Below are positions 7,794 to 41,324 of a stretch of 50,605 nucleotides of DNA, one piece after another. Made by a program: the position numbers and the translations under genes. Under the pieces are notes generated by a model. The model saw only the letters and a program-made list of their open reading frames with translations. It was not told the origin of the DNA and did not search any database. The first letter of the stretch is position 1. Each line of letters opens with the position of its first letter. The stretch is from NCBI GenBank assembly GCA_903900345.1, contig CAIUMO010000026.1, positions 1-50,605 of the forward strand, read 5' to 3'. Origin of the DNA: an uncultured bacterium (lineage in GTDB: Bacteria; Patescibacteriota; Saccharimonadia; Saccharimonadales; Saccharimonadaceae).

Positions 7794-7802
7794 ATTATAA
7801 CA
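7794..7802 (-). promoter_or_regulatory. extended -10 promoter of the trp leader and trpB
   Basis: On the minus strand this reads TGTTATAAT, a perfect extended -10 box. The leader-peptide ATG follows after 7 bases. No good -35 hexamer is visible, as expected for an extended -10 promoter. Confidence 0.65.
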
Positions 7803-7839
7803 CACAACCATGTTGGGTATTATCTCTGACATTAGGCAC

Positions 7840-7867
7840 TTGACATATCGTATAACTATGTTAATAT
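7840..7867 (+). promoter_or_regulatory. promoter of the seven-gene HAD-to-APH operon
   Basis: Consensus -35 TTGACA (7840-7845), a 16-base spacer and an extended -10 TGTTAATAT (7859-7867). It faces away from the trp promoter 38 bases to its left. The predicted leader is about 50 bases. Confidence 0.65.
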
Positions 7868-7879
7868 CTGAATGTATCA

Positions 7880-7901
7880 ACTGAGATGGAATCTCTTCAG
7901 T
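7880..7901 (+). promoter_or_regulatory. hairpin in the 5' leader of the HAD operon
   Basis: ACTGAGAT-GGA-ATCTC-TTCAGT forms a stem with a GGA loop at the very start of the predicted transcript. No T-run follows, so it is not a typical terminator; it could stabilise the 5' end or bind a regulator. Confidence 0.35.
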
Positions 7902-7923
7902 TTAAGTGTTAAATACCACCACC

Positions 7924-8613
7924 ATGACTACCAATAAATACTCTGGAATATTTGAAGGCATCGTATTCGACTTCGACGGTGTGATCGTAGACAGCGAGTC
8001 TAGGTGGGTTGATATTGAAACGCCATATCTAGTAAAACATATCCATAACTGGAAAGCAGAGAATTACTCAGAGCTAATCGGTAGGTCTCTCAATGACGTC
8101 TTTGACTATATAAAAGGCAATTACAACTTTAGCGTCACTAAAGAACAATACTTTAAAGATTACGAGAAGATGGCTCTAAAGCTATATAAAAAGATAGCCA
8201 TTTGTAACGCAGATATGGCGGATCTGTTACTCAATCTGCGGAACAACGAAGCTAAAATGGCCATTGCAACATCATCAAAATCGAGCTGGGTCAGAATGTC
8301 TCTAGAGAATAACAAAATATTAGAGTACATCAATACTATTATATCTGCTGACGATAATGACATTGAACATGGAAAGCCCGCTCCAGATGTTTATTTAAAG
8401 GCAGCTTCAATACTCAAAACTCAACCGAAAAATCTAGTTGCAGTTGAGGACTCTAGTAGCGGTATAAAAGCAGCTAAAGCAGCAGGCCTGTATTGCATAG
8501 GCCTAAGAAATGGAGCAAACGATGGTCAGAATATGGACGAAGCGGATGAGATAGTAAACGGATATAAACGACTAAAAGAAAATTTAATGTGTAAATTATA
8601 TGCAAAGCTATAA
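7924..8613 (+). CDS. HAD-superfamily phosphatase, beta-phosphoglucomutase-like
   Basis: A 229-residue HAD hydrolase with motif I FDFDGVIVDSE (about residues 15-25), a helical cap domain, motif II ATSSKSSW, and motif III/IV KPAPDVYLKAA followed by VEDSSSGIKAAKAAG. This layout matches subgroup IA phosphatases and phosphomutases acting on small phosphorylated sugars or polyols. The ATG at 7924 is preferred over a GTG at 7906 because the extra residues are not family-like; neither start has a good Shine-Dalgarno site. It is the first gene of an operon and overlaps the next gene by 14 bases, so it probably acts in the same pathway as that dehydrogenase. Confidence 0.85.
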   Translation: MTTNKYSGIFEGIVFDFDGVIVDSESRWVDIETPYLVKHIHNWKAENYSELIGRSLNDVFDYIKGNYNFSVTKEQYFKDYEKMALKLYKKIAICNADMADLLLNLRNNEAKMAIATSSKSSWVRMSLENNKILEYINTIISADDNDIEHGKPAPDVYLKAASILKTQPKNLVAVEDSSSGIKAAKAAGLYCIGLRNGANDGQNMDEADEIVNGYKRLKENLMCKLYAKL

Positions 8614-9604
8614 AGAAGCTATAGTCAAAAGAGACTCAGAAAAGTATTTAAATACACTTAACAAAGATGCTCTAGTAATTTATTCACCAACATCTATAAG
8701 TGCTATTAGGCTAAACAATACAAAAGTACATATGATTGATTCGCGTATATTCGGACGCAATGTTGCATTGATGGACGCACTTAGCAGCGGTGATGTTAAA
8801 TATGACACAATTGTTAGTTTTGGCGGCGGCACCGCCACTGATGTTGCTAAATTCATTTCCTATAAAATAGGTGCGAGGTTTGTTTGTGTCCCGACAATGC
8901 TATCAACTAATGCCTTCTCGACTAACAAAGTGGCTTTGGTGGTTGGCAAAGAAAAGATCACTCTAGATGCTAAACTGGCTGATGAAATCATACTTGATTC
9001 TAAACTACTCTCTAAGGCTTCCAGGCAAAATTTATTCGGCATTGCTGACGTACTATCAATTCATGTAGCACTAAAAGACTGGGAAATAGCTAACAGTGAC
9101 ATTAGCGAACCGATAGACAACGACGTGTACGTATCTGCCAATAAATTACTTTATGATACGGTTAAGTTTATTAACAAAAATAGCAAACGAAAAATTTGCA
9201 AAAATATGCCTGAAGTTATAAATCTAGTTGGTGATTCTGGTCAAATAACTAATATTTACGGTACTGGGCGACCAGAAAGCGGCTCTGAACATATTTTTGC
9301 CAAGAAGCTTGAGAGTTTGGTTGATGTTCCGCATGGGGTCAGCGTATCGATTGGTATCATTTTGATGTCTATCATCCAAGACAACTTGTCTAGCAGGATA
9401 ATTAACAGTATCAAGAAGATAGGTACGATTAACAACCTAGAGGAGTACTCGATTGACAGATCCGTTATCAAGAAGGCTTTAGCTATCATTAAGCCACGCA
9501 GCGATCGTTATTCAATCCTTAATCGCGTTACATTTGATGACCTAGAGGTTGATAACATAGTAGATAGATTTGAAGCTGAAGCCGGATTAAAACTAAGGCG
9601 ATAA
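8600..9604 (+). CDS. sn-glycerol-1-phosphate dehydrogenase-like enzyme (EgsA/AraM family)
   Basis: A 334-residue member of the DHQ synthase/iron-alcohol dehydrogenase superfamily. It has the NAD(P) loop FGGGTATDVAKFISYK (about 74-89), VPTMLSTNAFSTNK, then GIADVLSIHVALKDWEIAN, GTGRPESGSEHIFAKKLE and VPHGVSVSIG. Asp150, His231 and His245 correspond to the metal ligands. This block order matches glycerol-1-phosphate dehydrogenases (EgsA of archaea, AraM of Bacillus) better than 3-dehydroquinate synthases or aminocyclitol synthases. The expected reaction reduces dihydroxyacetone phosphate to sn-glycerol 1-phosphate, but the neighbours leave open a related ketose-phosphate substrate. Its start overlaps the HAD gene by 14 bases. 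Confidence 0.75.
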   Translation: MQSYKEAIVKRDSEKYLNTLNKDALVIYSPTSISAIRLNNTKVHMIDSRIFGRNVALMDALSSGDVKYDTIVSFGGGTATDVAKFISYKIGARFVCVPTMLSTNAFSTNKVALVVGKEKITLDAKLADEIILDSKLLSKASRQNLFGIADVLSIHVALKDWEIANSDISEPIDNDVYVSANKLLYDTVKFINKNSKRKICKNMPEVINLVGDSGQITNIYGTGRPESGSEHIFAKKLESLVDVPHGVSVSIGIILMSIIQDNLSSRIINSIKKIGTINNLEEYSIDRSVIKKALAIIKPRSDRYSILNRVTFDDLEVDNIVDRFEAEAGLKLRR

Positions 9605-9610
9605 ATAGCC

Positions 9611-10624
9611 ATGATTTATATATGCGATTTTTTCAAAAGACATAAGGAGGCTATTTCTAACCAGATCGAGCTATTAGCGATTAATAGTAATAGTGAAGTG
9701 ATTGCTGCAACTCGTTTTATGGGTCAAAAATCTTTTCAAAAAGACGATCGAAAAGATAAGATTTACATTTATCCACCAGCTATCTACAACTTACTATTAC
9801 CGTTAAAGATCATAAATAGCTGCAAGGAACCGGTCCATTATTTCGAAGAGGAGGCCTCTTCATATAAACGTTTTTTATTTAATTCTACCAAGACACCACT
9901 TTATATCTCTATGTATCGTCGTCCAACGTCAGAGTATATTGAACATATTAAAAAATATAAATATTTAGAGAAGATATTCGTAGAACTAGACTATCATCGC
10001 GACATACTTGTTAACGGTGGCATCTCAAAAGACAAAGTTATGGTTGCCCATACACCAGCTAAGATTGCGAGTTGCAACTCAACCAAGGAGTTCAGTCCAA
10101 GTGAGATCACATTAGCTTTTGCTAGTTGGAATAATAGTGAACCAAGCGCCCTAGAAGATAGGGGGATGATATATTTACTTGATCTATTAAAGAAGACACC
10201 AGGGGCTCGCCTTGAAATCGCATTAAGGGACAATAAAATAAATGGGTTTAATGAGATTGCTAGAAAATTAGACGTTATAGATAGGGTGAGTTTGAATAAT
10301 ATAGCTAATGAGAATGAGCTATTAGAAATGTTTAAGAAATCTGATTTTGTAGCTTTTTGCGCACAAAAGCGAGTAGTTAAAGATGTACCAAATTCACTAC
10401 TCGACGGTCTAATGCTATCTAAACCGGTTATTATAACCGACATTCTAGACTTCAGTAGGGTAGTTACGAAAAATAATATAGGTATAACAATTGAGACTGG
10501 CTCAATACCAACTAAATTAGTGGTCAGCAAAGCATCTTATAAAGAGATGTCAGCTAATGCTTTTCGATATTCAAAACTACACACACCTGATAACTATTTA
10601 AGAATATTAGAAAGTTACAAATAG
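9611..10624 (+). CDS. glycosyltransferase-like protein (GT-B fold)
   Basis: A 337-residue soluble protein whose C-terminal half follows the GT-B acceptor/donor pattern: ITLAFASWNNSEPSA at the start of the second Rossmann domain, ARLEIALRDNKINGF, then SDFVAFCAQKRVVKDVPN, LLDGLMLSKPVIITD and NNIGITIETG. The classic E-x7-E of GT4 is degenerate here (VPNSLLDGL). The N-terminal half is divergent. It starts 6 bases after the dehydrogenase stop and is followed after 4 bases by a clearer GT4, so the two may act in turn on one acceptor. Donor and acceptor are unknown. Confidence 0.6.
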   Translation: MIYICDFFKRHKEAISNQIELLAINSNSEVIAATRFMGQKSFQKDDRKDKIYIYPPAIYNLLLPLKIINSCKEPVHYFEEEASSYKRFLFNSTKTPLYISMYRRPTSEYIEHIKKYKYLEKIFVELDYHRDILVNGGISKDKVMVAHTPAKIASCNSTKEFSPSEITLAFASWNNSEPSALEDRGMIYLLDLLKKTPGARLEIALRDNKINGFNEIARKLDVIDRVSLNNIANENELLEMFKKSDFVAFCAQKRVVKDVPNSLLDGLMLSKPVIITDILDFSRVVTKNNIGITIETGSIPTKLVVSKASYKEMSANAFRYSKLHTPDNYLRILESYK

Positions 10625-10628
10625 AATT

Positions 10629-11780
10629 ATGAAGATCGCAATAATTAGCCCATGGGCGATATCTAAGTCAGCCATAGGTGGAACAGAGAGGTTTACGATC
10701 GACCTGGCCGACCAGTTCAGGGATATCGGTCACAGCGTCACAGTATTTACATTTTCAGGCAAAGATCAACGTATAAATAACACCGATTATATCAGTCTAG
10801 ATATTCTTGGTAACGGTAGGATAGCTAATGAATATGATATTAGGGAAATAGCAGGAGACTTTTCAGAAGAGTCATCTTTTTGCAAAATAGCTGAAAAAAT
10901 CGAAGGCAGAATTAGCCTAGAGGAGTTTGATGTCATACAAATTAATTCATTACTACTGCTCAAGGCCTGGACGAAAAAGCAACGCTTTTTTACCATTCAT
11001 ACGAACCCCTTCGAATATAAACTAGACTGGGGAGACACAGCGTTCTCGGTAATGATAGATGCCCTCAAAAGCCAAACGATCAATCATTTAACTAAAATAA
11101 GCGCACCTTCGAAACACTATGCCGATTATTTTTCTAAGTTAATTGACTCTACTGTAATCAACATACCACACGCTATCGACGTGTCGCGCCTTATTTGCAC
11201 TAAGAATAGCCAAAGCCTCAGAAGCATATATGGGCTAGACCAAAATAAAGTCACATTGTTATTGCCGAGCCGGCTTGAGCCAAACCAAAAAAGACCGCAC
11301 ATACTTTTTGAAGCACTAGGCAAAATAGACCCATCATTTAAAAATAACCTACAGGTTATATCGTCAGGAGTTGATACTCAATATGTAACCTATAAGACTG
11401 ATCTAGAACAACTAGCCGCCAAAAATAATATCCCTGCTAGATTTGTCTACTTCAAGGATATTGCTGAAGCCTATAGATTGGCGGATATCATAATCTTGCC
11501 AAGCGCTTCCGAAAGCTTCGGATACTCCGCACTAGAATCACTGTCACTCGAAAAGATAACCATACTAAACAACTTGCCGACATTTAAAGAAATAGCTCAA
11601 GATAATCCAAACGCCTTTTTCTTTAATCATACGTCTACTAATTTGGCGAAAGTAATAAATAGCATTCTTGAGCATAGAGTAACTTCGGTTAGTAATTCTG
11701 ATTTATGGATAAGTCGTTATGAACCAAAGCTATGGGTAAATAAATATCAGGAAGTCATTGAATCATGCATTTCGACATAA
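10629..11780 (+). CDS. glycosyltransferase family 4
   Basis: A 383-residue retaining GT-B enzyme. The N-terminus MKIAIISPWAISKSAIGGTE shows the usual Gly-rich acceptor loop; the second domain has LLLPSRLEPNQKRPHILFEA, then ADIIILPSASESFGYSALE, which holds the E-x7-E nucleotide-sugar site. GT4 enzymes move a sugar from an NDP-sugar to a lipid, polyol or glycan at the cytoplasmic face. It overlaps the next gene by 16 bases. Confidence 0.85.
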   Translation: MKIAIISPWAISKSAIGGTERFTIDLADQFRDIGHSVTVFTFSGKDQRINNTDYISLDILGNGRIANEYDIREIAGDFSEESSFCKIAEKIEGRISLEEFDVIQINSLLLLKAWTKKQRFFTIHTNPFEYKLDWGDTAFSVMIDALKSQTINHLTKISAPSKHYADYFSKLIDSTVINIPHAIDVSRLICTKNSQSLRSIYGLDQNKVTLLLPSRLEPNQKRPHILFEALGKIDPSFKNNLQVISSGVDTQYVTYKTDLEQLAAKNNIPARFVYFKDIAEAYRLADIIILPSASESFGYSALESLSLEKITILNNLPTFKEIAQDNPNAFFFNHTSTNLAKVINSILEHRVTSVSNSDLWISRYEPKLWVNKYQEVIESCIST

Positions 11781-12667
11781 GTATAAAAAAGCTAGCTTTT
11801 GAAAACAGTCAAATCATCGAGAAGCTGATTAGTAAAAGTTTTGTTAAAAGATCTAGACACAATAAGCTGACGACTATAGAAGTGGTTAATGCTAACCATG
11901 TACTCGCTGATTACGTTTATGGACCAAAGATCGCCACACTAGTTAGAGCGCACGATTTCGATAGATTAAATAATGTCTATAACAAAGTTTCAAACGATAT
12001 TCTTATTCCGGATATAATAACTAAAAAAATTGACTTTAATAAAATTGGCCTTGTTATTGTAAGGCCAGAATTAATCAATATACAGAAAAAATGCGTTGAT
12101 TTAATAGAGAAACAGCAACTAGATATTATATACAGAAAGAAATTTAAAATTAATTTTAATAAATATTGGCAACTATATCATCATGGTCTTACAGACCCAG
12201 AATCGTATTATGATTTCCCGACGAGAACCTTAAATTATATTAATAAAGATTTAATATTATTGATCATTACGGCAAGTAAACACAAAACCAATCAACCGAT
12301 AAGTGATATCCTTAACGATATAAAGGGCAAACAAGGTACTCACACAAGCAATACACTTAGGGGCGATCTGGCTTTTAATAAGTTAAAGCAATTAATTAAA
12401 GGCAACGGTAGTAATTTTACCTATAGTGGCAACATCGCACTAGATCCAATCGGCGCTTATCGGCATCTTATATCAGACCGCATTACTTCCGATCGTGCCC
12501 ACGTTACAGCCGACGTGCCAATTTTGTTTTATGCAGGGCAAGGTGTTCATATACCCAATAGCCAGGAAATTAGCCGCGATATTAGAGTTCTACTTCAAAA
12601 GGATGAACTAGAATCATTGATTAAATTAGGATTAATACCAATAGCAGAGGATTCGACCAATGAATAA
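11765..12667 (+). CDS. divergent nucleoside-diphosphate-kinase-like protein
   Basis: A 300-residue protein whose residues about 94-275 align by eye with nucleoside diphosphate kinase. IGLVIVRPELINIQKK (94-109) corresponds to the first strand with the KPD loop (here RPE). KYWQLYHHGLTDPESYYDF matches the HYxEHKGKPFF segment, LILLIITASKH the VVAMVLEG strand, and GTHTSNTLRGDLA the PGTIRGDFG loop (Arg199). GVHIPNSQEISRDI matches the catalytic IHGSDSxExAxxEI segment, keeping a histidine (His262). About 50 residues are inserted between RGD and the histidine, where the normal enzyme has about 10, and there is an extra N-terminal region of about 90 residues. It overlaps its neighbours (16 and 8 bases). 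It may transfer phosphate or only bind a nucleotide; the assignment rests on motif comparison. Confidence 0.5.
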   Translation: MHFDISIKKLAFENSQIIEKLISKSFVKRSRHNKLTTIEVVNANHVLADYVYGPKIATLVRAHDFDRLNNVYNKVSNDILIPDIITKKIDFNKIGLVIVRPELINIQKKCVDLIEKQQLDIIYRKKFKINFNKYWQLYHHGLTDPESYYDFPTRTLNYINKDLILLIITASKHKTNQPISDILNDIKGKQGTHTSNTLRGDLAFNKLKQLIKGNGSNFTYSGNIALDPIGAYRHLISDRITSDRAHVTADVPILFYAGQGVHIPNSQEISRDIRVLLQKDELESLIKLGLIPIAEDSTNE

Positions 12668-13451
12668 TCATCGCCTCGAAACATACAGCCCGCTCATTCA
12701 AGAAATCGTTGCGAAAAGTGGCGAAATCATTCGAAGTGGCTTTGATGGACAGCTTCAGATCAAGACCAAGAACGACTTAACCCCACTGACCCAAGTTGAC
12801 ACAGACGTTAATCGATACGTAATGGATAGACTCGCCGAAGAGTTCCCAAATGATGATTTTGCAGGCGAAGAGGGGTGTAGAGTGAACCATTCAGAACGTC
12901 TTTGGATATGTGACCCACTAGATGGAACGAGACCATTTATTAATGGCTTGCCACTTGGAACTTTTGCTCTTGCGTTAGTAGAAAACAAACAGGTTGTTTT
13001 GTCTGTTATACATGACCCGTTTATGAATCGAACTATCTACTCGGCAAAAGGCGAAGGCGCATGGCAAAATGGCCAAAGGCTAGAAGTCTCCAAACAGGCA
13101 TCTCTTGATGGAGCCGATATTCATACCTGTTGGGGTTCTACGGAATCTGGCTATCTGAGAAGGATAGATAATCTTCGCAAGGTTGGATCTAAGGTTATTA
13201 AGATGGATGCTACAGTTTATGCCGGAATGTTGGTATCAAACGGTAAATTGGATGGGGATATATATCCGGGAAAGCACCCCTGGGATGCTGCGGCTCAATC
13301 GTTGGCTGTAATTGAGGCTGGGGGAAGAGTTACGGATATAAACGGAGATAATATTGATTTTAGCCAAGACTCCATTAACGGCGCAGTTATCACAAATGGT
13401 AAAATTCACGATAAACTCATTGAACTTATACTAAGAAGTGAAATAGAATAG
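12660..13451 (+). CDS. inositol monophosphatase-family phosphatase
   Basis: A 263-residue Mg-dependent phosphatase of the IMPase/HisN/CysQ group. It shows the metal sites AGEEG (first Glu pair), WICDPLDGTRPFINGLP (DPxDGT signature), and the C-terminal GKHPWDAAAQSLAVIEAGG (WDxAA signature). Members dephosphorylate inositol phosphates, histidinol phosphate or related polyol phosphates. The neighbours include no his genes, which argues for a polyol or sugar phosphate. It overlaps the preceding gene by 8 bases and the kinase follows after 4 bases. Confidence 0.9.
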   Translation: MNNHRLETYSPLIQEIVAKSGEIIRSGFDGQLQIKTKNDLTPLTQVDTDVNRYVMDRLAEEFPNDDFAGEEGCRVNHSERLWICDPLDGTRPFINGLPLGTFALALVENKQVVLSVIHDPFMNRTIYSAKGEGAWQNGQRLEVSKQASLDGADIHTCWGSTESGYLRRIDNLRKVGSKVIKMDATVYAGMLVSNGKLDGDIYPGKHPWDAAAQSLAVIEAGGRVTDINGDNIDFSQDSINGAVITNGKIHDKLIELILRSEIE

Positions 13452-13455
13452 CATT

Positions 13456-14319
13456 ATGAGTATTAGGAAGTGGAAAAATAAACAGCTGATATCTACAGGC
13501 CTTGAAAGTGTTGTATATAAAATAACTCAGAATAACGGTGAAGAGTTTATCTTAAAATCCAGAAAGTTGGGTGGTAAACAAAATTATTTGTTTGAAGCTT
13601 ATTGTTTAGAGCAGCTAGCAAGTATTGGTGCTATGGTTCCTAGCGTTATCAATTATTCTAGTGATCATATATCTATTTCAATTATTAACGGCAGCGAGAT
13701 AGATGACCAGCGCGATATCTATAACAATAAGACTGTCTTTTTGGATATAGCCAATAATCTGGCCTTGTGTCAAAATAAGGCCTTTACCGGCTTTGGGGCT
13801 CCTATTAATAGAAACGGTGATTTTATAGGTGAGCATGACAGCTGGAAAGACTATCTCGCCAGTATATTGACCCTATTTGATACTACAGAGACCGAAACGT
13901 CCGGTTTGTCTGCTCAACAGATAGCAAAGATTAAAAAATATTATGAATCAAACTATTCAGATATAAGCCTGGATACTGGAACAATTGTCCATGGCGACTT
14001 TGCAATGAATGCTATCTTTGTGGACAATAAAAAGTTCAGCGGGATTATAGATTTTGGCGACGGACTAATAGGTGATCCAATGCTTGATTTAGCGTATTTC
14101 CGCTTTAAAGATATAAATAAAGATTATGGTAATAATATTTACCAAAATCTTATAAATAATTATTTTAACCAGCCTAAAATTAAAAAACCAAAGGATTTTG
14201 AATCACGAATAAACCTATACATGATCTACTGGGGTATTCAAAGAATTAATCATTGCCCAGATGATAATATAAGGCGCAAATTTGGCGATAAGTTAAAGAT
14301 TGTATCAGACATTTTATAA
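13456..14319 (+). CDS. APH/choline-kinase-family small-molecule kinase
   Basis: A 287-residue kinase-fold protein. It has a Lys in EEFILKSRKLG (ATP site), the catalytic loop VHGDFAMNAIFVD (Brenner HGDxxxxN pattern), the metal-binding IIDFGDGLIGDP and the following LDLAYFRF. Family members phosphorylate hydroxyls of aminoglycosides, choline, homoserine or sugars. Placed last in an operon with two phosphatases and two glycosyltransferases, it more likely phosphorylates a pathway intermediate or salvaged sugar than an antibiotic. A double hairpin terminator follows. Confidence 0.85.
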   Translation: MSIRKWKNKQLISTGLESVVYKITQNNGEEFILKSRKLGGKQNYLFEAYCLEQLASIGAMVPSVINYSSDHISISIINGSEIDDQRDIYNNKTVFLDIANNLALCQNKAFTGFGAPINRNGDFIGEHDSWKDYLASILTLFDTTETETSGLSAQQIAKIKKYYESNYSDISLDTGTIVHGDFAMNAIFVDNKKFSGIIDFGDGLIGDPMLDLAYFRFKDINKDYGNNIYQNLINNYFNQPKIKKPKDFESRINLYMIYWGIQRINHCPDDNIRRKFGDKLKIVSDIL

Positions 14320-14331
14320 AGCATACCAGCC

Positions 14332-14390
14332 TTGCAAGGATTATCCTTGCAAAAATAAAATAGCGACCACGAGGGTCGTTATTTTATTTT
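14332..14390. terminator. tandem hairpins, bidirectional terminator
   Basis: First a near-perfect palindrome (TTGCAAGGAT/ATCCTTGCAA, 14332-14352), then a long hairpin flanked by A- and T-runs (AAAATAAAAT...ATTTTATTTT with a GCGACC/GGGTCGT core, 14352-14390). It ends the seven-gene operon and can also stop transcription leaving the tRNA gene on the opposite strand. Confidence 0.85.
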
Positions 14391-14480
14391 TGGCGGAGAG
14401 GGCGAGATTCGAACTCGCGGTACCATTACTGACACGGCAGTTTTCAAGACTGCTACCTTCAACCACTCGGTCACCTCTCC
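14391..14480 (-). tRNA. tRNA-Ser (anticodon UGA)
   Basis: On the minus strand it folds as a class II tRNA: acceptor GGAGAGG with CCTCTCC, anticodon stem GCAGT/ACTGC around loop CTTGAAA (anticodon TGA), a long variable arm as expected for serine, and T-arm GCGAGTTCGAATCTCGC. The 3' CCA is encoded. The length is 90 bases with CCA. It reads UCA and other UCN codons. Confidence 0.97.
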
Positions 14481-29641: not shown

Positions 29642-30682
29642 TTACAACTTAATTGAATAATAATACTTAATAACCTCTGGTGTATGTGCCGAGGTTATTA
29701 TTATTTGGCCTTTTTGACTATCCATTAAATATTTTTGACGTGAGTCATCAAGTTCACTAAAGACGTCATCTAGTAATATTATTGGTTTAATATTAGTTAT
29801 TTGTTCGATGATATCGACTTCCAAAAATTTCAAAGCCAGTACGATTGTTCGGACTTCACCACGCGATATAACCGACAAAGCAGGGGAGTAGTTGAATTGA
29901 AAAACAACGTCATGACGATGCGGCCCAATACTAGTAAATCCAACAATAGCATCACGTCCACTATGGCTATGTAGGTCGTTTAGTAATTTCTGTTTTATAT
30001 CACCAATATAGGTATGCGAGTAGTGAATCGACACAACGTCTTTTGTTTTGGCAATAATATTATAGGCATCGTTTAATTGGCTGTTAATCTTTTCAATAAA
30101 AGCAATGCGCTTTTCAATAATGTAGGCACCATATTCACTAAGGGTGATATCCCAAGCAAATAATTCATCGGCTGTTGTGTATTGCTGTTTTAATAGGTTA
30201 TTACGCTGTTTTAAAGCCCGCTCGTACTTGTGAAGCGCATTTTGATACATTGGGTCGAGTTGGCTAATAAAATGATCTATAAACTGTCTACGACGGGTTG
30301 GTGAACCATGTAATAAGCGCAGGTCGTCGGGTTCAAATAATACAACTGGGTGTTTATATTTAGGCAGCAGGCGATACATAGTTTTGTCGTCAACGATAAT
30401 CTTTTTTCGACCAGATTCTAGGCTGGGATTAAATGTCACCGAGCGTTTAATATATTCATCTAATTCAACATCAATCTTCCACCAAGGTGATTCGTGACGC
30501 AGCACATCATTGTCACTACCCTTAAAAGAGCTACCTTGTAGCGCAATATACAAAGCTTCAATCAACGACGTCTTGCCGCTACCGTTAGCGCCAGTAATAA
30601 CTGTAATTGTCGGTGATAATACGATCGACAATTCACTATGTGATCGAATATTTTGGACTGATAGCTTTTTTACCACCGCCAT
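29642..30682 (-). CDS. recF: DNA replication and repair protein RecF
   Basis: A 346-residue SMC-like ABC ATPase that loads RecA at ssDNA gaps. It shows Walker A ITGANGSGKTSLIEAL (about 29-44), FEPDDLRLLHGSPTRRRQF, the signature ISRGEVRTIVLALKF and Walker B PIILLDDVFSELDD. Length is slightly below the usual 360-370. It ends 19 bases from the converging secretion operon; an AT-only hairpin (29627-29654) covers both stops. It follows dnaN by 11 bases, the classical order. Confidence 0.95.
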   Translation of the reverse strand: MAVVKKLSVQNIRSHSELSIVLSPTITVITGANGSGKTSLIEALYIALQGSSFKGSDNDVLRHESPWWKIDVELDEYIKRSVTFNPSLESGRKKIIVDDKTMYRLLPKYKHPVVLFEPDDLRLLHGSPTRRRQFIDHFISQLDPMYQNALHKYERALKQRNNLLKQQYTTADELFAWDITLSEYGAYIIEKRIAFIEKINSQLNDAYNIIAKTKDVVSIHYSHTYIGDIKQKLLNDLHSHSGRDAIVGFTSIGPHRHDVVFQFNYSPALSVISRGEVRTIVLALKFLEVDIIEQITNIKPIILLDDVFSELDDSRQKYLMDSQKGQIIITSAHTPEVIKYYYSIKL

Positions 30683-30693
30683 ACAATTACCAA

Positions 30694-31794
30694 CTAACTT
30701 TTAAGAGGCATGATTATATGGTAATAATCGGTATTTGTTTTGGTTGACTTCAATATACAAGGCGCAATTTTACCATTAAAGCCAAATTCTACAATATCGC
30801 CATCCGTAACTGACAAAGCTTCACTTAGATAACGATAGTTAAGTGTAATTTGACCATCATTAGTAATCTCGGCGTCGGTTTCGGATGTATTTTCACCCAT
30901 TTGTGAAGCAATTGAGTGAACCGATAAAGTTTTTTTCTTTTTATCAGCTGTCAAAGTAATACTACCGCCTGATTCGCGAGCAAACAAACCAGCAATTTTA
31001 GTAATACGTACAAAATCAGCTTTATTGATGGTAATCACGGTTTCGGAAGCGCTTGGAACTAGTTGGCGATAATCAGGGAAGTTACCGTCAATTAAACGAC
31101 TGATTATTTCAGTATCGTTAATTCTAAATCGCACCTGAGTTTCATCAAACAGTATATCAATTTGATCTGATTCTTCGGTAATATTACGTAATACTTCCTG
31201 AAGAGTTTGAGTTGGAATAATAGCCGATACTTCGCTTTTTGTCTCGACTAGTCGACGTTCAGATAACCTATAACCATCAGTTGCCGCCAAATATAACTGA
31301 CCTTGATGTGAATTCCAGTAAACACCAGTTAAAACAGGGCGAGCCGAGTCATTACTAGCAGTTATAATCGTCTGTGAAACAGCTTGTTTAAAATCTTCAA
31401 CCTTAATACTATATTGAATCGATGACGATTCATTAATAGTCGGCAATTCAGGGAATTCATCAGCAATAAAGCCATTGATAATTGAATTATATGAACCACT
31501 TTTGATATGTAAATTGTCGTTTACAACTTTTAGTTCGACTGATTCTTTTGGTAGGCTAGAGATGAATTCTGACATTAATCTGGCTGGAATAGTAATTGAT
31601 CCTGGTTTAATAATTTTTGCGCCAATATACTGTGTAATGGCAATTTCTAGGTTAGTAGCAGCTACCAACAGGCGAGTGCCATCGGTGCGAAGTAGGATAT
31701 TACTCAGAATTGGTAATTGAGTTTTAATACTTGCAATTCGACTGACGGCTGATAATGCACGATTGAGTTTTTCTTGAGTTACGATAAGTTCCAT
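30694..31794 (-). CDS. dnaN: DNA polymerase III beta sliding clamp
   Basis: A 366-residue clamp. It has the usual three-fold domain pattern: MELIVTQEKLNRALSAVSRI at the start, ARLMSEFISSLP in domain 1, RPVLTGVYWNSHQGQLYLAATDGYRLSERRL in domain 2 and the C-terminal YYHIIMPLKS close to the canonical ending. It encircles DNA and tethers the polymerase. AGGTAACAAT upstream gives an AGG ribosome site. It lies between recF and the small ORF after dnaA. Confidence 0.97.
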   Translation of the reverse strand: MELIVTQEKLNRALSAVSRIASIKTQLPILSNILLRTDGTRLLVAATNLEIAITQYIGAKIIKPGSITIPARLMSEFISSLPKESVELKVVNDNLHIKSGSYNSIINGFIADEFPELPTINESSSIQYSIKVEDFKQAVSQTIITASNDSARPVLTGVYWNSHQGQLYLAATDGYRLSERRLVETKSEVSAIIPTQTLQEVLRNITEESDQIDILFDETQVRFRINDTEIISRLIDGNFPDYRQLVPSASETVITINKADFVRITKIAGLFARESGGSITLTADKKKKTLSVHSIASQMGENTSETDAEITNDGQITLNYRYLSEALSVTDGDIVEFGFNGKIAPCILKSTKTNTDYYHIIMPLKS

Positions 31795-31809
31795 TATTGT
31801 TACCTTTCT

Positions 31810-32067
31810 TTAAATTTCATTTATTAGTTCTAATAATAGGTGCTGTGGATTGTGAGTAAAACTTTTATGCAACAGATTGATTTTAATGTTTTTGTATGTG
31901 GATAAAGTATAGGAAAGATGGGGTGAAGTTTGGTTGATAAACTGGCTTTGTAACCAGTCGACTGTCGCTAATTGCATGATTGGATGTTGTTCGGTGGGTG
32001 TATATTCACCAGTTATACAGGTGTTAATCCGCTGGTTGTTCACATATTTTGAACAGCTATTAGGCAT
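31810..32067 (-). CDS. small protein coupled to dnaA, unknown
   Basis: An 85-residue ORF filling the dnaA-dnaN gap. Its ATG overlaps the dnaA stop as ATGCCTAA, and GGGAG lies 7 bases upstream, a good arrangement for coupled translation. It ends 15 bases before dnaN. The product (start MPNSCSKYVNNQRINTC) is polar, with aromatic and His residues and no recognisable domain. The same DNA carries DnaA-box-like sites, so the ORF may be fortuitous. In the same place other bacteria often have a small RNA-binding (YaaA/S4-like) gene, but I see no S4 pattern here. Confidence 0.45.
   Translation of the reverse strand: MPNSCSKYVNNQRINTCITGEYTPTEQHPIMQLATVDWLQSQFINQTSPHLSYTLSTYKNIKINLLHKSFTHNPQHLLLELINEI
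31844..32044. other. second cluster of DnaA boxes (dnaA-dnaN gap)
   Basis: A perfect box TGTGGATAA (31897-31905, reverse of TTATCCACA), plus weaker matches TGTGGATTG (31844-31852) and TTGTTCACA (32036-32044). Together with the boxes upstream of dnaA this resembles the bipartite origin of Bacillus, where DnaA boxes lie on both sides of dnaA. Confidence 0.5.
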
Positions 32068-33442
32068 ATAGTTTCTCCCGAATTGAAGCAACTTGCTCGC
32101 GAATCAGAAAGTCTAATTTGATTGCTTTTTCGATCTTTTCAACTGAGTGAATAGCTGTTGTATGGTCTTTGCGTCCAAGTTCAATTGCTATTTTAGGGAA
32201 ACTAAGGTGTAGCTCACTTCGTAGCAGGTACATTGCAATTTGACGCGGCACGACAATATATTTATCACGCTTTTCACTACAAATTTCATTAGCGTCTAAC
32301 TGGAAGTGTTTAGCTGTACGGTCGATAATTTGTTTACTCGATATATGTTGTGGTCGAGAATGACGGATATTACCTAGTAAACCTTCGGCGGTTGAAATAT
32401 CTGGCTCGATGCCACGCATTTCAGCATAGGCCAGTAGTTGATTAAGGGCACCTTCTAGTTCACGAATATTAGTTTTGATATTTGTAGCTAAATATTCAAT
32501 CGTATCTTGTTTTAAAGTCACACCTGATAAAGACGCCTTGATATTAAGAATGGCACAACGAGTCTCAAAGTCGGGCATTTGAATATCAATCGCCATACCC
32601 ATCTCGAACCTACTACGTAAACGTTCAGTTAAAGTTGGAATGCTTTTAGGTGGCTTATCGCTACTGATGATAATTTGTTTATTGTTTTGGTGTAGATGAT
32701 TAAAGGTATGAAAGAATTCTTCCTGAGTCTTTTCTTTGCCAGCGATAAATTGCATATCATCAACAATCAACACATCAACATTACGGTATTTATCGGAAAA
32801 ACCTTTTTTCTTGAATCTGATATGATCTAGGAATTCATTAACGAATGTTTCGATGCTAATATAAACGATTCTAGTTTTGGGGTCGTTTTTGATGATTTCA
32901 TTACCGATAGCCTGCATCAAGTGGGTTTTACCAAGTCCAACACCACCATATAAATATATCGGGTTATATTTAACACCTGGGCTAGCTGCAACGGCGCGAC
33001 TGGCGGTGTAAGCCAGGTCGTTACTAGAGCCGACAATAAAGTTATCAAAAGTATAGCGAGGGTTTAGCCCACCCGTGACCGCTGGGGTTGGTGCCGATTG
33101 CGATCGACTGGAGTTAGACAGTAAATCATCGGCTGGCGATAGGGATGATGAAGCTGTTGGTTCGACGGTTGTTTCACGATTAAGGCGAGTATGTTTGCCT
33201 GTAGTGCTGACAATATAGTTAATCTGCTTTGGGTTGATGCCGTTCTTGGCTAGTATGGTTTTGATTTGATCGTTAAATTTTACCTCAAATTGCTTTTTGG
33301 CAAAGATATTTGGGACAGATATAACTATGCCAGCATCATTTTGGCTGATGAGTTCGGTGTTTTTAAACCACGTCGTAAATGTTGCATGAGAAACCGATAA
33401 TTCGATCTCACCGAGCACACTTTGCCATAACGAGTGAAGCAT
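32060..33442 (-). CDS. dnaA: chromosomal replication initiator DnaA
   Basis: A 460-residue AAA+ initiator. Domain I begins MLHSLWQSVLGEIELSVSHA, with the conserved FTTWF; a Ser/Pro-rich linker (about 95-125) is domain II. Domain III has YTFDNFIVGSSNDLAYTAS, Walker A GGVGLGKTHL, Walker B VLIVDDMQFI and the arginine finger region ERLRSRFEMG. Domain IV has PRQIAMYLLRSE and the DNA-binding signature GRKDHTTAIHSV. The ATG at 33442 is chosen because domain I starts there and GGAGAGG lies upstream; an upstream ATG at 33511 falls within the -35 element. Confidence 0.97.
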   Translation of the reverse strand: MLHSLWQSVLGEIELSVSHATFTTWFKNTELISQNDAGIVISVPNIFAKKQFEVKFNDQIKTILAKNGINPKQINYIVSTTGKHTRLNRETTVEPTASSSLSPADDLLSNSSRSQSAPTPAVTGGLNPRYTFDNFIVGSSNDLAYTASRAVAASPGVKYNPIYLYGGVGLGKTHLMQAIGNEIIKNDPKTRIVYISIETFVNEFLDHIRFKKKGFSDKYRNVDVLIVDDMQFIAGKEKTQEEFFHTFNHLHQNNKQIIISSDKPPKSIPTLTERLRSRFEMGMAIDIQMPDFETRCAILNIKASLSGVTLKQDTIEYLATNIKTNIRELEGALNQLLAYAEMRGIEPDISTAEGLLGNIRHSRPQHISSKQIIDRTAKHFQLDANEICSEKRDKYIVVPRQIAMYLLRSELHLSFPKIAIELGRKDHTTAIHSVEKIEKAIKLDFLIREQVASIREKLYA

Positions 33443-33482
33443 ACCTATAAATCCTCTCCATGAACACACTTTATTACTTATA

Positions 33483-33511
33483 ACTATACCTAATGACAGA
33501 GTTTTCCACAA
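33483..33511 (-). promoter_or_regulatory. dnaA promoter overlapped by a DnaA box
   Basis: On the minus strand: TTGTGG (-35), 17-base spacer, TATAGT (-10). The DnaA box TTTTCCACA (33502-33510) covers the -35 element, so DnaA-ATP binding would be expected to repress dnaA. Confidence 0.6.
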
Positions 33512-35276: not shown

Positions 35277-35738
35277 ATGAATAAAGAAGAATCAGTACAG
35301 TTTGCGCAAAAGTATTTAGAGGATTTGTTATCGTTTTTTGGCGCTAATTTAACAGTGTCATCGACTTGTGATGACGAAGTGATTGAGTTATCTGTACCAT
35401 CGAATGAATTAAATAGCCTGTTAATCGGTCGTAATGCCGAAACTTTACGTAGTCTACAGTATATAGTTTCGACAGTCTTGCGCAACAAAGATGCCGAATT
35501 AACCCGCGTTAATATTGATATCGCTGACTATAAAAAGCAACGTGCCGATCGAATTGCTAAACAGGCCCATGAGTGGATTGAAGAGGTTAGACGGACCGGC
35601 GATTCACGCATTGTTAATATGAATGCCGCTGACCGACGAATTGTTCACCAGGTCGCTAGTGAGTATGGTGATATTCGTACCTTTTCTGAGGGTGAAGGCT
35701 ATGACCGCAAGCTAACGATTGCTCAAGCTAGTTCTTGA
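35277..35738 (+). CDS. jag: Jag (SpoIIIJ-associated) KH-R3H RNA-binding protein
   Basis: A 153-residue protein lacking the N-terminal Jag_N domain. The KH domain holds SLLIGRNAETLRSLQYIVS (GxxG-like loop) and the R3H domain holds MNAADRRIVHQVASEYG (Arg and His of R3H). Jag/KhpB proteins bind RNA and affect cell elongation. A strong GGAGGTG lies 4 bases after the yidC stop codon, so the two genes are co-expressed. Its 3' end overlaps the converging GT4 gene by 11 bases. Confidence 0.93.
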   Translation: MNKEESVQFAQKYLEDLLSFFGANLTVSSTCDDEVIELSVPSNELNSLLIGRNAETLRSLQYIVSTVLRNKDAELTRVNIDIADYKKQRADRIAKQAHEWIEEVRRTGDSRIVNMNAADRRIVHQVASEYGDIRTFSEGEGYDRKLTIAQASS

Positions 35739-36825
35739 TTTTAAGAGCTTTAATATAAATTTCATGAGTTTGCTGTGCCATGCGTAGCCATGAATATTTT
35801 TTGATTTGTTTGTAACCTTTTTTAATTAGATCGTCTCGCAGTTTATCATCTGTTAAAACGTCGTTAATCGCTCGAGCGATGTCGTTAACGTCGTCAGGGT
35901 TGAAGTAATAGGCGGCATCACCATATACCTCTGGTAGACAAGTCGCATCGCTACTAATAACAGGGGCGCCATAACCCATAGCCTCTAATCCTGGTAGTCC
36001 AAAACCTTCCATCAGAGAAGGGAAGACATAGGCAGTTGCCTGAGTGTATAGCCAATCACGTTGATTATCTGGAATAAAATCTGTAAAAATAATATTTTTA
36101 TAATTATTTTCAACAAAATATTGTTGATTTATTTTGGCGCTGTCATTGATTTTGCCGACTAAGATTAAACCTAAATCAGGATGTTTTTTTAGTAATTTTT
36201 GGTGAGCATCCCCTAGATAACGGATATTTTTATAGTCTCTTTGTTGGCCGACATACAAGATAAATTGTTTAAATGGGTGTTTGTATGTTGTTAATTTATC
36301 AACATATACATCAGCAGCTTCATAAGTAATGGTTATCTTGTCAGCTGGAATATTAACCAATTTTAATAACTCGTTTTTTGTAAAATTGCTAGGAACAATA
36401 ATCTGATTGCTAGATTTAGCAACTTGTTTAAAAACGTATTTTCCAATAACTTGTTTAAAATGGTAAATCAGCCAATTCTTATCAGTATTGTATGTTTTTA
36501 ACAATGTTAGGTCGTGAAATGTGGTGACATGATTGCCATGATACAATATTGGTTGTTGAGGCATACAAAAATGAACCAAGTCTGGTGACAGCTGATCTAG
36601 GAATTGTTTAAAACCAAACTGCTCATTTATGGAATAGTTTTTAAAATCAGCGATTTTAACCTTAAAATTATTAGCGGTCGGCTGCCAGTAATTCTTATCT
36701 TTGGCTAAAACTAAAATTGAATAATTATTAACTTGGTCAATTTGTTGTAGGTAATTTAATAATCTTTCGACATATCGTCCCGTCGAGCTGTTGATGATTC
36801 GAGCATCAATTGCGATATGGCTCAT
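35728..36825 (-). CDS. glycosyltransferase family 4
   Basis: A 365-residue GT-B enzyme with NSSTGRYVERLLNYL in the acceptor domain, NQIIVPSNFTKNELLKLVNI, ILYVGQQRDYKNIRYL and the E-x7-E site FPSLMEGFGLPGLEAMGYG. The pattern is typical of mannosyl- or rhamnosyltransferases building cell-surface polysaccharide. It is last in a five-gene minus-strand operon, overlapping the GtrA gene by 4 bases (ATGA). Confidence 0.9.
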   Translation of the reverse strand: MSHIAIDARIINSSTGRYVERLLNYLQQIDQVNNYSILVLAKDKNYWQPTANNFKVKIADFKNYSINEQFGFKQFLDQLSPDLVHFCMPQQPILYHGNHVTTFHDLTLLKTYNTDKNWLIYHFKQVIGKYVFKQVAKSSNQIIVPSNFTKNELLKLVNIPADKITITYEAADVYVDKLTTYKHPFKQFILYVGQQRDYKNIRYLGDAHQKLLKKHPDLGLILVGKINDSAKINQQYFVENNYKNIIFTDFIPDNQRDWLYTQATAYVFPSLMEGFGLPGLEAMGYGAPVISSDATCLPEVYGDAAYYFNPDDVNDIARAINDVLTDDKLRDDLIKKGYKQIKKYSWLRMAQQTHEIYIKALKIKN

Positions 36826-37241
36826 TGGTCGGATCCTTTAAAGACGAATTTACGATATAGAAGATAGTTCCAAATTAATGTAGCGACAGTGGCAATGATT
36901 TTGCCGACGAATAATATTACATAACTATTAATTGCTGACTGGCTTAACAATAATTTAACGCCGTTGATGATTAACGGTTGAATAACCCAGAGGCTAAACA
37001 AAGTAATAATCAAAAAGTATATCAGTTGGGATTTGTTGGTCGTATTGTTTTTGAAAGTAAACTTTTTGTTGGCATAAAAACTAAATCCTAATGCCAAGGA
37101 TGTTGATATAAGATTACTAATTGTTGCCGATAAGCCTAATGACACCAAAATAAATAAAATAGTGAAGTCGATAGTGGTATTGGCGCCACCAACAATTGCA
37201 AAACGAATCTTATCAGCGTGTTTTTTTAGTAGCTTTTCCAT
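36822..37241 (-). CDS. GtrA-family membrane protein
   Basis: A 139-residue protein with four membrane helices and the GtrA pattern: KIRFAIVGGANTTIDFTILF at the start and FYANKKFTFKN after helix 2, ending NYLLYRKFVF. GtrA proteins are thought to flip undecaprenyl-linked sugars across the membrane. The start overlaps the end of the GT2 gene by 29 bases, and GT2/GtrA pairs are a common functional unit. Confidence 0.9.
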   Translation of the reverse strand: MEKLLKKHADKIRFAIVGGANTTIDFTILFILVSLGLSATISNLISTSLALGFSFYANKKFTFKNNTTNKSQLIYFLIITLFSLWVIQPLIINGVKLLLSQSAINSYVILFVGKIIATVATLIWNYLLYRKFVFKGSDQ

Positions 37242-38163
37242 GGTGGTATTCCTCGATTAAATAAAGGGGGCGGTTTTTGGTCTCGTTATAGATTCGACCT
37301 ATATATTCACCAATGACACCAAGGGATAGTAACTGAACACCACCCAAAAATAGTATAGCCGCCATCATTGATGGGTACCCAAGAGCTGGATCTCCATATA
37401 ATATCGTTTTTACGACAATTACTATTATGAATACAAAAGCCACAAATGAAATAATAAAACCAAGAATTGATGATATTCGTAGTGGTGCGGTTGTAAATGA
37501 AGTGATTCCGTCGATTGCAAAATTAAATAGTTTTACATAATTCCATTTACTAACACCGGCAGTTCGCGGGTCACGGTCATAGGTAATTTCCTTTTTTTTG
37601 TAGCCAATCCAACTAAACATTCCTTTGGTGTAGCGCTGTGATTCACGAATCTGTTTTAATGCTTCGATGCAACGGCGATCTAACAGGCGGAAATCGCCAG
37701 TATCAATTTGAATCGGGATATTGGTAGTTTTTTGCAGGATTTTATAAAACCACTGCGAGCTGGCTTTTTTGAACCACGTCTCGCCTTTACGGCTGTTACG
37801 TTTAGCGTAAATATCGTCGTAGCCTTCTTCCCAGTATTTAATCATTTGAGGAATTAACTCTGGTGGGTCTTGTAGGTCAGCATCAATAATAACAGTCGCA
37901 TCACCTGTTACGTGATCAAAGCCGGCAACCATAGCGACTTCTTTGCCAAAGTTGCGTGAGAAATTAACGTAGGATACGCGATCATCTGTTTGTGCAAGAT
38001 CTTTGATTATGTCGAGGGTTTTATCGCGACTGCCATCATTTATAAATAGAAATTCAAAACTGTAAGATTTATTATCATTAGCTAATTTATCAAGCCGGTG
38101 ATATAAAGCTTTTAGGATATCCTGTTCATTATAGGTAGGGATTAGGATACTGATCTTTTTCAT
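37213..38163 (-). CDS. GtrB/DPM-like polyprenyl-phosphate glycosyltransferase (GT2)
   Basis: A 316-residue GT2 enzyme with SILIPTYNEQDILKALYHRL, the DxD-type IIDADLQDPPELIPQM, the acceptor region TGDFRLLDRRCIEALKQI and YDRDPRTAGVSKWNYVKL, and two C-terminal membrane helices (about 232-256 and 268-292). It probably makes an undecaprenyl-phosphate sugar for the adjacent GtrA protein to flip. Confidence 0.93.
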   Translation of the reverse strand: MKKISILIPTYNEQDILKALYHRLDKLANDNKSYSFEFLFINDGSRDKTLDIIKDLAQTDDRVSYVNFSRNFGKEVAMVAGFDHVTGDATVIIDADLQDPPELIPQMIKYWEEGYDDIYAKRNSRKGETWFKKASSQWFYKILQKTTNIPIQIDTGDFRLLDRRCIEALKQIRESQRYTKGMFSWIGYKKKEITYDRDPRTAGVSKWNYVKLFNFAIDGITSFTTAPLRISSILGFIISFVAFVFIIVIVVKTILYGDPALGYPSMMAAILFLGGVQLLSLGVIGEYIGRIYNETKNRPLYLIEEYHHGKATKKTR

Positions 38164-38204
38164 TAGTACTATTATAACTTAGATTGGCAAGCGGTGGCTC
38201 GCTA

Positions 38205-39332
38205 TTAGCTAAGTAGTTTTTCGGTGTAGTTGATAATAGTTTGGCTATTCTTTTCCCAGGAGAATTGGGTAAGTTGTTGCTTGCCTTTGGCGACCAGTTC
38301 TTTTTGTAAGTTTTTATCATTAATCAATTGCTGGATTGTCTGACAAAAACTATCACTATCGCCTGCCTTGGCAAACAAAGCTGCGTCACCGGCGGTTTCG
38401 CGTAAGACTGGTATGTCTGATGCGATTACGGGGCAGTCGCTGGCCATAGCCTCAAGTATCGGCATGCCAAAACCTTCGTAAATTGACGGCATGACAAACA
38501 TCGTCGCTTGTTGATAGAAAGCCGCTGTGTCTTTGCTGTCAACAAAGCCAACATGAACAACTTTATCACCGGCGGCTTGAGCTGCCTTGATCGCCTGACG
38601 GCTTTTCTCAGTTTTCCAACCATTGCCACCAGCTAGTACTAAACTATATTCATCTTTTATGTTTGTTGGTAGTTTTTGATAAGCTTCGATTAATGTCGGT
38701 AGGTCTTTGCGTGGTTCGAGGTTGCCGATGAAATAAATGAATTTTTGCGTAGGGACACCATATTTTTTATGTATCTCGTTATCGTTTTTTGTGAGATAAG
38801 TCGTATCTGGCGGAATTGGAGTAATGATTATTTTTTCAGGTTCTATCGAAAATTCTTTGACTATCTCGGATTTAACAGCCTCGGAGATAGTGATAATAAA
38901 GTCGGCTTGATGAATTGATCTAGGTACAACACGGCGTAAATGTTCAAGATTTTTAGCTTCGACTACTTCTGGGAAGTATATATATGTCAGGTCATGAATA
39001 ACGGCCGCTTTGAGGCCTGATTTAATAGTTGGCCAAGTGGCAAAGTTGGGGTGAATAGTTAAATCTACCCTGGTCAGGAAAAAATCAAATGGAGGTGCGA
39101 TATTGTAACTTTGAAGCTTGGCATAGATTCGCAGTGGCACTAGACTATTTTTTTCAAGTGGTCTGCGAAGGTTTATTTTTGGTTGCGATTGACGATTCAA
39201 AAAATTAAAATAGGCGGCATGGACTTCTGTGCCTGGATTATTATCCAGAGCTTCAGTCAGCAATTTGGTGTAATTAGACACGCCAGATAGGCTTTTGGTC
39301 GCCAGACAACTAACTTCGACACGAATTCTCAT
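38205..39332 (-). CDS. glycosyltransferase family 4
   Basis: A 375-residue GT-B enzyme. It has LSGVSNYTKLLTEALD, AAVIHDLTYIYFPE, DFIITISEAVKSEIVKEFSI, IYFIGNLEPRKDLPTLIEAY and the E-x7-E site YEGFGMPILEAMASDCPVI. It overlaps the upstream GT4 by 4 bases (ATGA). A gap of 41 bases separates it from the GT2 gene. Confidence 0.92.
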   Translation of the reverse strand: MRIRVEVSCLATKSLSGVSNYTKLLTEALDNNPGTEVHAAYFNFLNRQSQPKINLRRPLEKNSLVPLRIYAKLQSYNIAPPFDFFLTRVDLTIHPNFATWPTIKSGLKAAVIHDLTYIYFPEVVEAKNLEHLRRVVPRSIHQADFIITISEAVKSEIVKEFSIEPEKIIITPIPPDTTYLTKNDNEIHKKYGVPTQKFIYFIGNLEPRKDLPTLIEAYQKLPTNIKDEYSLVLAGGNGWKTEKSRQAIKAAQAAGDKVVHVGFVDSKDTAAFYQQATMFVMPSIYEGFGMPILEAMASDCPVIASDIPVLRETAGDAALFAKAGDSDSFCQTIQQLINDKNLQKELVAKGKQQLTQFSWEKNSQTIINYTEKLLS

Positions 39333-40483: not shown

Positions 40484-40494
40484 GTGTTATTTAC

Positions 40495-40524
40495 AGTATA
40501 CAGCAGTGCCCGAGCTGGTATAAT
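40495..40524. promoter_or_regulatory. divergent promoters for the GT operon and the ABC exporter
   Basis: Minus strand: TATACT (40495-40500), 11 bases before the GT4 ATG. Plus strand: extended -10 TGGTATAAT (40516-40524), 7 bases before the permease ATG. Both predict very short or absent leaders. The two boxes are only about 16 bases apart, so the operons may compete for polymerase. Confidence 0.6.
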
Positions 40525-40531
40525 AGTAAAG

Positions 40532-41323
40532 ATGAAATATTTACATTCACGCAACCGCGCGATATTGCGCGAGATGGTTATTACAGACTTTAAGGTTCGT
40601 TATCAAAATTCAGTTTTAGGTTATATGTGGTCACTTCTAAAGCCACTTTTTCTGTTTGCGATTTTATATATTGTCTTTACTTATATTATTCCACTCGGCA
40701 AAGGCATAGATCATTATCCAGTTTATCTGTTGACTGGGATTATATTTTGGAATTTTTTTGTGGAATCTACTATGATAGGCTCAAGTTCGATCGTAGCCAG
40801 GGGTGATCTAATAAGAAAGATCAGTATACCTCGATATTTAGTTGTTTTGTCGAGTTCGCTTTCGGCGCTAATCAACCTCAGCCTTAGTTTAGTAGTTGTG
40901 TTTATTTTTGCATTATTCAATGGTATTATGCCATCGTTTAGCTGGTTTTTGATTATACCGATTATTGTTGAGCTATTTGTGTTTGCTTTAGGCATTTCTT
41001 TCTTGCTCTCAGCGATGTATGTCAAATTTCGTGACATTACCTACATCTGGGAAATATTCCTTCAGGCTGGTTTTTACGCTACGCCAATCATCTATCCATT
41101 AATGAATATATCTGAACGATATCGGGGCTGGCTTTTTATGAATCCGATGGCGCAGATTATTCAGGACGCCAGATATGTGGTAGCTACTAATACTAGTATT
41201 ACTCTCTGGTCGACAGTTCATTCAATTGCTATAATTGCACCCTTTATAATAATTGCTTTATTTGCCATCGGTGGTGGTTTATATTTCAAGAGTCGTTCTA
41301 AGTATTTTGCGGAGGATATATAA
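40532..41323 (+). CDS. ABC-2 polysaccharide exporter permease (Wzm-like)
   Basis: A 263-residue permease: an N-terminal amphipathic segment (AILREMVITDFKVRYQNSVL), then six membrane helices with GYMWSLLKPLFLFAILYIVF and the ABC-2 motif YVKFRDITYIWEIFLQAGFYATPIIYP. It exports lipid-linked polysaccharide with the next gene. The ATG at 40532 is preferred to 40469 because the promoter's -10 box lies between them; the shorter protein begins like other Wzm proteins. Confidence 0.9.
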   Translation: MKYLHSRNRAILREMVITDFKVRYQNSVLGYMWSLLKPLFLFAILYIVFTYIIPLGKGIDHYPVYLLTGIIFWNFFVESTMIGSSSIVARGDLIRKISIPRYLVVLSSSLSALINLSLSLVVVFIFALFNGIMPSFSWFLIIPIIVELFVFALGISFLLSAMYVKFRDITYIWEIFLQAGFYATPIIYPLMNISERYRGWLFMNPMAQIIQDARYVVATNTSITLWSTVHSIAIIAPFIIIALFAIGGGLYFKSRSKYFAEDI

Positions 41324-41324
41324 A

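Follow-up and report, generated by a model that had tools for sequence, protein, structure and literature searches.

What do seven genes packed end to end beside a serine tRNA gene do for an uncultured member of the Saccharimonadaceae, and do all seven belong together? The genes lie at positions 7924 to 14319 of contig CAIUMO010000026.1 (GenBank assembly GCA_903900345.1; source genome G000, 787,773 bases, 97% complete), of which the whole stretch analysed, 50,605 nucleotides, is here called the window. A preliminary description, made from the sequence alone, had taken them as a single seven-gene operon between one promoter and one terminator. Comparison with other genomes found that five of the genes (g2, g3, g4, g5 and g7) recur as neighbours in two further genomes, and that these five form a functional unit is very probable. 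It is possible, and we propose it tentatively, that this core belongs to a cassette moving horizontally among Patescibacteria and, judging from the enzyme classes, that its product is a phosphorylated glycosyl-polyol of the cytosol. Members of the Saccharibacteria and related groups live attached to or inside other cells; their genomes are very small and encode few biosynthetic pathways, which makes a conserved and mobile biosynthetic unit noteworthy there; it could be tied to contact with the host, and its five-gene core offers a concrete signature for finding the pathway elsewhere. The seven genes are:

7924–8613, plus strand, g1: HAD-superfamily phosphatase (beta-PGM/hexitol-phosphatase-like); accessory, exchangeable
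8600–9604, plus strand, g2: glycerol-1-phosphate dehydrogenase (G1PDH)-like reductase; core
9611–10624, plus strand, g3: divergent GT-B glycosyltransferase, "GTa"; core, diagnostic
10629–11780, plus strand, g4: GT4 glycosyltransferase; core
11765–12667, plus strand, g5: orphan protein resembling the nucleoside-diphosphate kinase (NDK) fold; core
12660–13451, plus strand, g6: inositol monophosphatase (IMPase)-family phosphatase, HisN-like; accessory
13456–14319, plus strand, g7: aminoglycoside phosphotransferase (APH)-fold small-molecule kinase; core

A five-gene core shared across two classes

The seven open reading frames (ORFs) are collinear, encode 229 to 383 amino acids each and contain no internal stops, and the tight packing and overlap first described were borne out by a spacing of −16 to +6 bp (−14, +6, +4, −16, −8 and +4 bp between successive ORFs from g1 to g7). 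The first ATG of g1 lies at 7924, with an alternative GTG at 7906. The initial family calls agree with Pfam and NCBIfam, with qualifications for g2 (below the family cut-off), g3 (a weak GT-B match) and g5 (no family match).

In collections holding one genome per species, g5 was found in two of 151 genomes of the family, and g2 in those same two. Orthologues of g3 were sought in two samples, 354 genomes of the family and 380 of the phylum, and occurred only in G000, G025 and G473; the g3 profile matched these carriers at E ~1e-180 or better and every other genome at 1.7e-7 or worse, the latter matches being generic GT-B C-domains. In all three carriers g2, g4, g5 and g7 lie alongside, and g3 was never seen without the other four. 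G025 (locus L006, also L009; UBA949, Candidatus Saccharibacteria) belongs to the same family and another genus, and has the order g2-g3-g4-g5 followed by an APH gene. G473 (locus L010) belongs to another class of the phylum and reads g3-g4-[g5 and g7 fused]-HAD (opposite strand)-g2, so that the order g3-g4-g5/g7 is kept across two classes. Identity to the window was 31 to 45% for every core protein aligned from L006 and L010. One relative genome is only 78% complete, and a pattern scan of genome contigs, which used poor patterns and returned UBA949 alone, is no measure of rarity.

The idea of seven genes as one conserved set was rejected: g1 is replaceable and g6 occurs only here. Relatives keeping individual genes and not the full set do exist, which defeats the seven-gene claim and leaves the five-gene claim standing. 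At L006 3677–5203 in UBA949, a divergent AMP-binding (adenylate-forming) enzyme adjoins the cassette and may be an extra tailoring gene.

The genomic slot and the probable gain of the block

In genomes of the same genus (L053 to L064), comFC and tRNA-Ser(tga) are adjacent in most of those examined, and the left side is variable. The slot beside tRNA-Ser holds other contents or is nearly empty in these sister genomes: G727 (L054) has a TrpB gene 92% identical to that of the window, then other ORFs, then tRNA-Ser, and in G705 (L055) a TrpB remnant lies ~130 bp from tRNA-Ser. On the left, homology with L054 stops at ~7799, and sister-genome homology on the right resumes at 14352, so the seven genes fill the slot as one block. 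The features bounding it are:

7800–14352: extent of the acquired block, set by the limits of sister-genome homology
14352–14392, strand not assigned: terminator hairpin common to the tRNA-Ser locus, from hairpin score and sister-genome conservation
14391–14480, minus strand: tRNA-Ser(tga), right border of the variable slot

Since the cassette is rare, gain at this slot, rather than loss in the sisters, is the simplest reading. Cassette genes mostly have a lower G+C content (34 to 38%; g6, 43%) than nearby genes (40 to 48%). Integrase-core (rve) genes adjoin the cassette in both other carriers (L006 10453–10758 and L010 46–921), consistent with mobility. An origin from phage or plasmid was rejected, g5 being without a match among 50,697 records from phages and 72,556 from plasmids; g3 likewise had no match in plasmid records, and g2, g3, g4 and g5 had none in four IMG/VR scans. 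Relatives of g2 among the mobile-element records searched have different gene contexts. In L054, a gene with LAGLIDADG and helix-turn-helix domains overlaps the end of tRNA-Ser.

Of the proposed control signals, the single promoter did not hold up: the best promoter-like site (7840–7867) matches at 10 of 12 positions, and the number of such sites in the region is not above chance (33 vs 30.3 ± 5.3 expected). The terminator exists as a strong 17-bp hairpin (z = −7.1), but the stretch from 14352 through tRNA-Ser is ~91% identical in three sister genomes that have no operon (L055, L056 and L057), and the hairpin is therefore the tRNA-Ser locus's own.

A proposed kinase pair with an NDK-like partner

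In L010, g5 and g7 form one uninterrupted ORF of 615 amino acids (APH match, E = 9.6e-17). The g5 of L006 reads into the APH N-lobe up to an assembly mark of two Ns, after which the frame changes, and a fusion is likely there as well. Such a two-kinase protein is unusual and was assigned to no described family here. In the window, g6 sits exactly between g5 and g7, whose products are joined into one in L010; a reasonable reading is that g6 was inserted into a once-fused gene, and the reverse direction, with g5 and g7 separate at first and fused later, is a possible alternative. Another locus, L029 1554–4072 (G805:C3), is an independent case of NDK-APH pairing: a Pfam-NDK protein (1.6e-17) adjoins an APH kinase (5.8e-16) within a GT2-rich cluster, accompanied by a weak nucleotidyltransferase-domain match.

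The kinase g7 itself matches Pfam APH (2.1e-14) and is APH(2'')/Hph-like in its family matches. It has the motifs HGDFAMN and IDFGD, with D181 catalytic, and the Asn of HGD..N is Asp in relatives (alignment A7).

For g5, no Pfam or NCBIfam family, the NDK model included, matched at E up to 1. Its likeness to NDKs comes from an NME5 match (E = 0.05), from hhalign comparison with NDKs (E = 1e-4, probability 55% over 46 columns), from a g5 profile that retrieves the Pfam-NDK protein of L029, and from an Arg..His..Glu pattern, so that the label "NDP-kinase-like" is probably right in a remote sense, albeit with no family match behind it. Alignment A3, of four members, has R199 (in TLRGD) and H262 (in GVH) at invariant positions, as would be expected for a catalytic pair; in our judgement, made by eye, they are the counterparts of Arg105 and His118 in NDK (PF00334). 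As in NDK, a Glu (E268) stands at +6 from H262, and the strand-helix-strand part carrying KPD is also similar. The differences are considerable. R199 and H262 stand 65 residues apart, against ~26 in the genome's own NDK, so the active-site segment is longer by some 40 residues, which include invariant DP, R and H positions. The N-terminus is extended by ~90 amino acids, most members have Arg at the Lys12 position (L011 has Lys), Gln or Ala takes the place of Asn115, and in a relative the protein continues into an APH kinase. In NDK the phosphoryl group is borne on His118, the beta-phosphate is in contact with Arg105, and Lys12 and Asn115 bind the ribose (PMC10482350). The conserved Arg and His with altered ribose contacts would fit retained phosphotransfer to a changed acceptor.

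Solo relatives of g5 were found in L011, L027 (broken frame) and L028, which shows that g5 also exists outside the cassette. The one at L028 6320–9583 (G796:C39) has a NUDIX gene and an APH kinase close by, and the ORF just upstream of it reads like a CYTH domain, with no Pfam match. The genome of the window has a separate true NDK (7e-42; L001 1501–1953, G000:C11), in which NILHASGN stands where N..HGSDS is usual and the segment from TIRGD to His is longer, ~26 residues.

The reductase, glycosyltransferases and phosphatases

The reductase g2 matches Pfam Fe-ADH_2 (7e-14), the NCBIfam G1PDH model (5.9e-35) and G1PDHs of the Protein Data Bank (PDB; E = 7e-32). It shares with archaeal and AraM G1PDHs the fold family, the GGG nucleotide motif (GNG in the L010 member), the GRPxSGSEH motif (here GRPESGSEH) and the likely metal ligands D150, H231 and H245, which are invariant in all three carriers (alignment A5). 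It differs from them in scoring far below the family cut-off, in its shorter N-terminus, in its gene neighbours and in having no PcrB/GGGPS partner over the cut-off. Assignment as a sugar-phosphate cyclase was rejected on scores (aroB 25.5 and phospholyase 22.9 vs G1PDH 121 bits).

The two glycosyltransferases are unequal in clarity. The g4 protein is a clear GT4 enzyme (Glycos_transf_1, 2e-17; Glyco_transf_4, 7.6e-12) with a conserved E295-x7-E303 (alignment A6, read by eye), while g3 gives a weak GT-B match to Pfam Glycos_transf_1 (1.8e-5), below the cut-off.

Both phosphatases lie outside the core. The g1 protein matches Pfam HAD_2 (8e-34); g1 is absent from L006, and L010 has an unrelated MtnX-like HAD-IB of a different HAD subfamily. 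Two of the three cassettes thus have a HAD phosphatase, each from another subfamily, so the need to remove a phosphate may recur from cassette to cassette. The g6 protein matches Pfam Inositol_P (IMPase; 3.7e-46) and is private to this genome, no IMPase lying beside the cassette in L006 or L010.

A tentative pathway and its rivals

The pathway we propose would begin with g2 reducing a ketose phosphate, most likely dihydroxyacetone phosphate (DHAP), to a polyol phosphate such as glycerol 1-phosphate (G1P) or similar. The GT4 enzyme g4 would then transfer a sugar onto the polyol phosphate, a phosphatase (g1, perhaps g6, or another HAD in the relative) would remove the phosphate, g3 would add a second sugar and g7 would phosphorylate a hydroxyl. 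With its putative NDK fold, phospho-His machinery and enlarged acceptor site, g5 may act on the same intermediate as g7, either adding a second phosphate onto the new one or supplying g7. Glycosylation is placed before dephosphorylation because known glycosyl-polyol pathways run so; the order given in the preliminary description, with dephosphorylation first, is equally allowed. An extension of this scheme, in which the APH-NDK fusion would be a two-step kinase acting on a glycosylated polyol, is unlikely. In it the APH domain would form the monophosphate, and an NDK-fold domain whose acceptor pocket has grown larger would put a second phosphate on this non-nucleotide, so that mobile cassettes of Patescibacteria would yield a previously unknown diphosphate-activated glycosyl-polyol. 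If the NDK-like/APH pair does act on non-nucleotides, it would widen the known phosphorylation range of the NDK fold.

The earlier remark that no named pathway has this gene set agrees with our search, which found no such pathway and no matching cluster in the open-access literature (subscription literature lay outside it). Several known systems are similar in part. Known polyol-phosphate glycosyltransferases transfer a sugar onto a polyol phosphate; in GgpS/GgpP, MpgS/MpgP and MshA with its phosphatase, the acceptor of the glycosyltransferase is a small polyol or acid bearing a phosphate and a dedicated HAD- or IMPase-type phosphatase follows, all as soluble enzymes. The cassette shares this logic, but it also has a G1PDH-like reductase, a second GT-B enzyme and APH and NDK-fold kinases, which those pairs have not, and g4 scores 33 bits against the MshA equivalog cut-off of 462. 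The CDP-2-glycerol pathway of pneumococcal capsules (Gct/Gtp1-3) likewise makes a polyol phosphate from DHAP for a glycan, with a reductase and HAD-type enzymes; the cassette differs in having no cytidylyltransferase or glycerol-phosphate transferase and in possessing two GT4-like enzymes and the APH/NDK pair.

The proposed chemistry fits the enzyme classes and is tentative, and a number of points count against it. We infer every substrate, the sequence of the reactions and the compound made, and only three complete cassettes are known. The G1PDH equivalog cut-off of 413 bits is far above the score of g2 (121 bits) and of its counterparts in the other two carriers (107 and 155 bits); naming substrates would be premature, given that an archaeal homologue carrying a G1PDH annotation turned out to be a glycolaldehyde reductase whose activity on G1P was not notable (PMC9700705). 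In g3, Lys stands where the E-x7-E motif has its first Glu (read by eye from the alignment), and its AlphaFold2 (AF2) model has a pLDDT of 47.1. The assignment of g5 to NDK is remote: its AF2 model (pLDDT 37.7) agrees with NDK only in strand-helix-strand order over residues 94 to 129, and the residue register is a judgement because the automatic alignment can be trusted over the N-terminal half alone and does not pin the C-terminal half. G025 has no phosphatase nearby, and the phosphatase step is therefore not obligatory there.

Two glycosyltransferases, polyol-phosphate chemistry and a variable presence typical of surface traits would also suit a surface-glycan decoration module (teichoic-acid-like or glycolipid), whose soluble precursors enzymes encoded elsewhere would attach to a wall or membrane carrier, and a locus at 36 to 46 kb of the window reads like glycan synthesis with ABC export. 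This role is nevertheless somewhat unlikely, given that none of the three cassettes encodes a priming transferase, flippase, polymerase or nucleotidyltransferase and that none of the seven proteins has an obvious membrane segment. A glycosylated natural product of small size, aminoglycoside- or nucleoside-like, with the APH kinase modifying it or giving self-protection, would draw on the APH(2'')/Hph-like character of g7, on an AroB-superfamily enzyme accompanied by glycosyltransferases and phosphatases, and on the mobile, sporadic distribution; but g2 scores with G1PDH and not with the cyclases, the cassette has no aminotransferase, ligase or transporter, and fusion to an NDK-like domain is not a known feature of resistance kinases, all of which makes this quite improbable.

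The variable slot beside a tRNA and the integrase-core genes adjoining two carriers' cassettes would be in keeping with a nucleotide- or sugar-based defence or conflict system, as would a weak GT4-conflict Pfam match (0.004, far below its cut-off) among the cassette proteins. No PADLOC model matched any of the seven proteins at E 0.01, on which anti-phage defence was rejected as a candidate, and there is no sensor, nuclease or membrane effector, so that a conflict role of any kind is very unlikely. With G1PDH as the best family match of g2, the PDB enzymes included, synthesis of archaeal-type ether lipids or AraM-PcrB head groups by a true G1P dehydrogenase also has to be weighed. We consider it extremely unlikely: g2 falls below the equivalog cut-off, the seven proteins show no obvious membrane segment, and this role is disfavoured because no PcrB/GGGPS exceeds the cut-off in the three carriers (no match in G000 or G025 and a sub-threshold fragment in G473, with controls, e.g., Bacillus subtilis, positive). 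That unrelated metabolic genes merely gathered in a hot spot is just as hard to credit. The slot does carry varied cargo, but the same five genes are neighbours in both classes, keep the order g3-g4-g5/g7 and include a fusion, which largely refutes chance for the core; it may still apply to g1 and g6, neither of which is conserved.

Other features of the window

At 29642–33511 lie ORFs that look like RecF, DnaN and DnaA; the cumulative GC skew reaches its minimum nearby (24 to 30 kb), and this is the probable replication origin region. The glycan locus at 35728–46428 comprises several glycosyltransferases together with an ABC-export pair reading like TagGH/Wzm-Wzt, and is a possible user of the cassette product.

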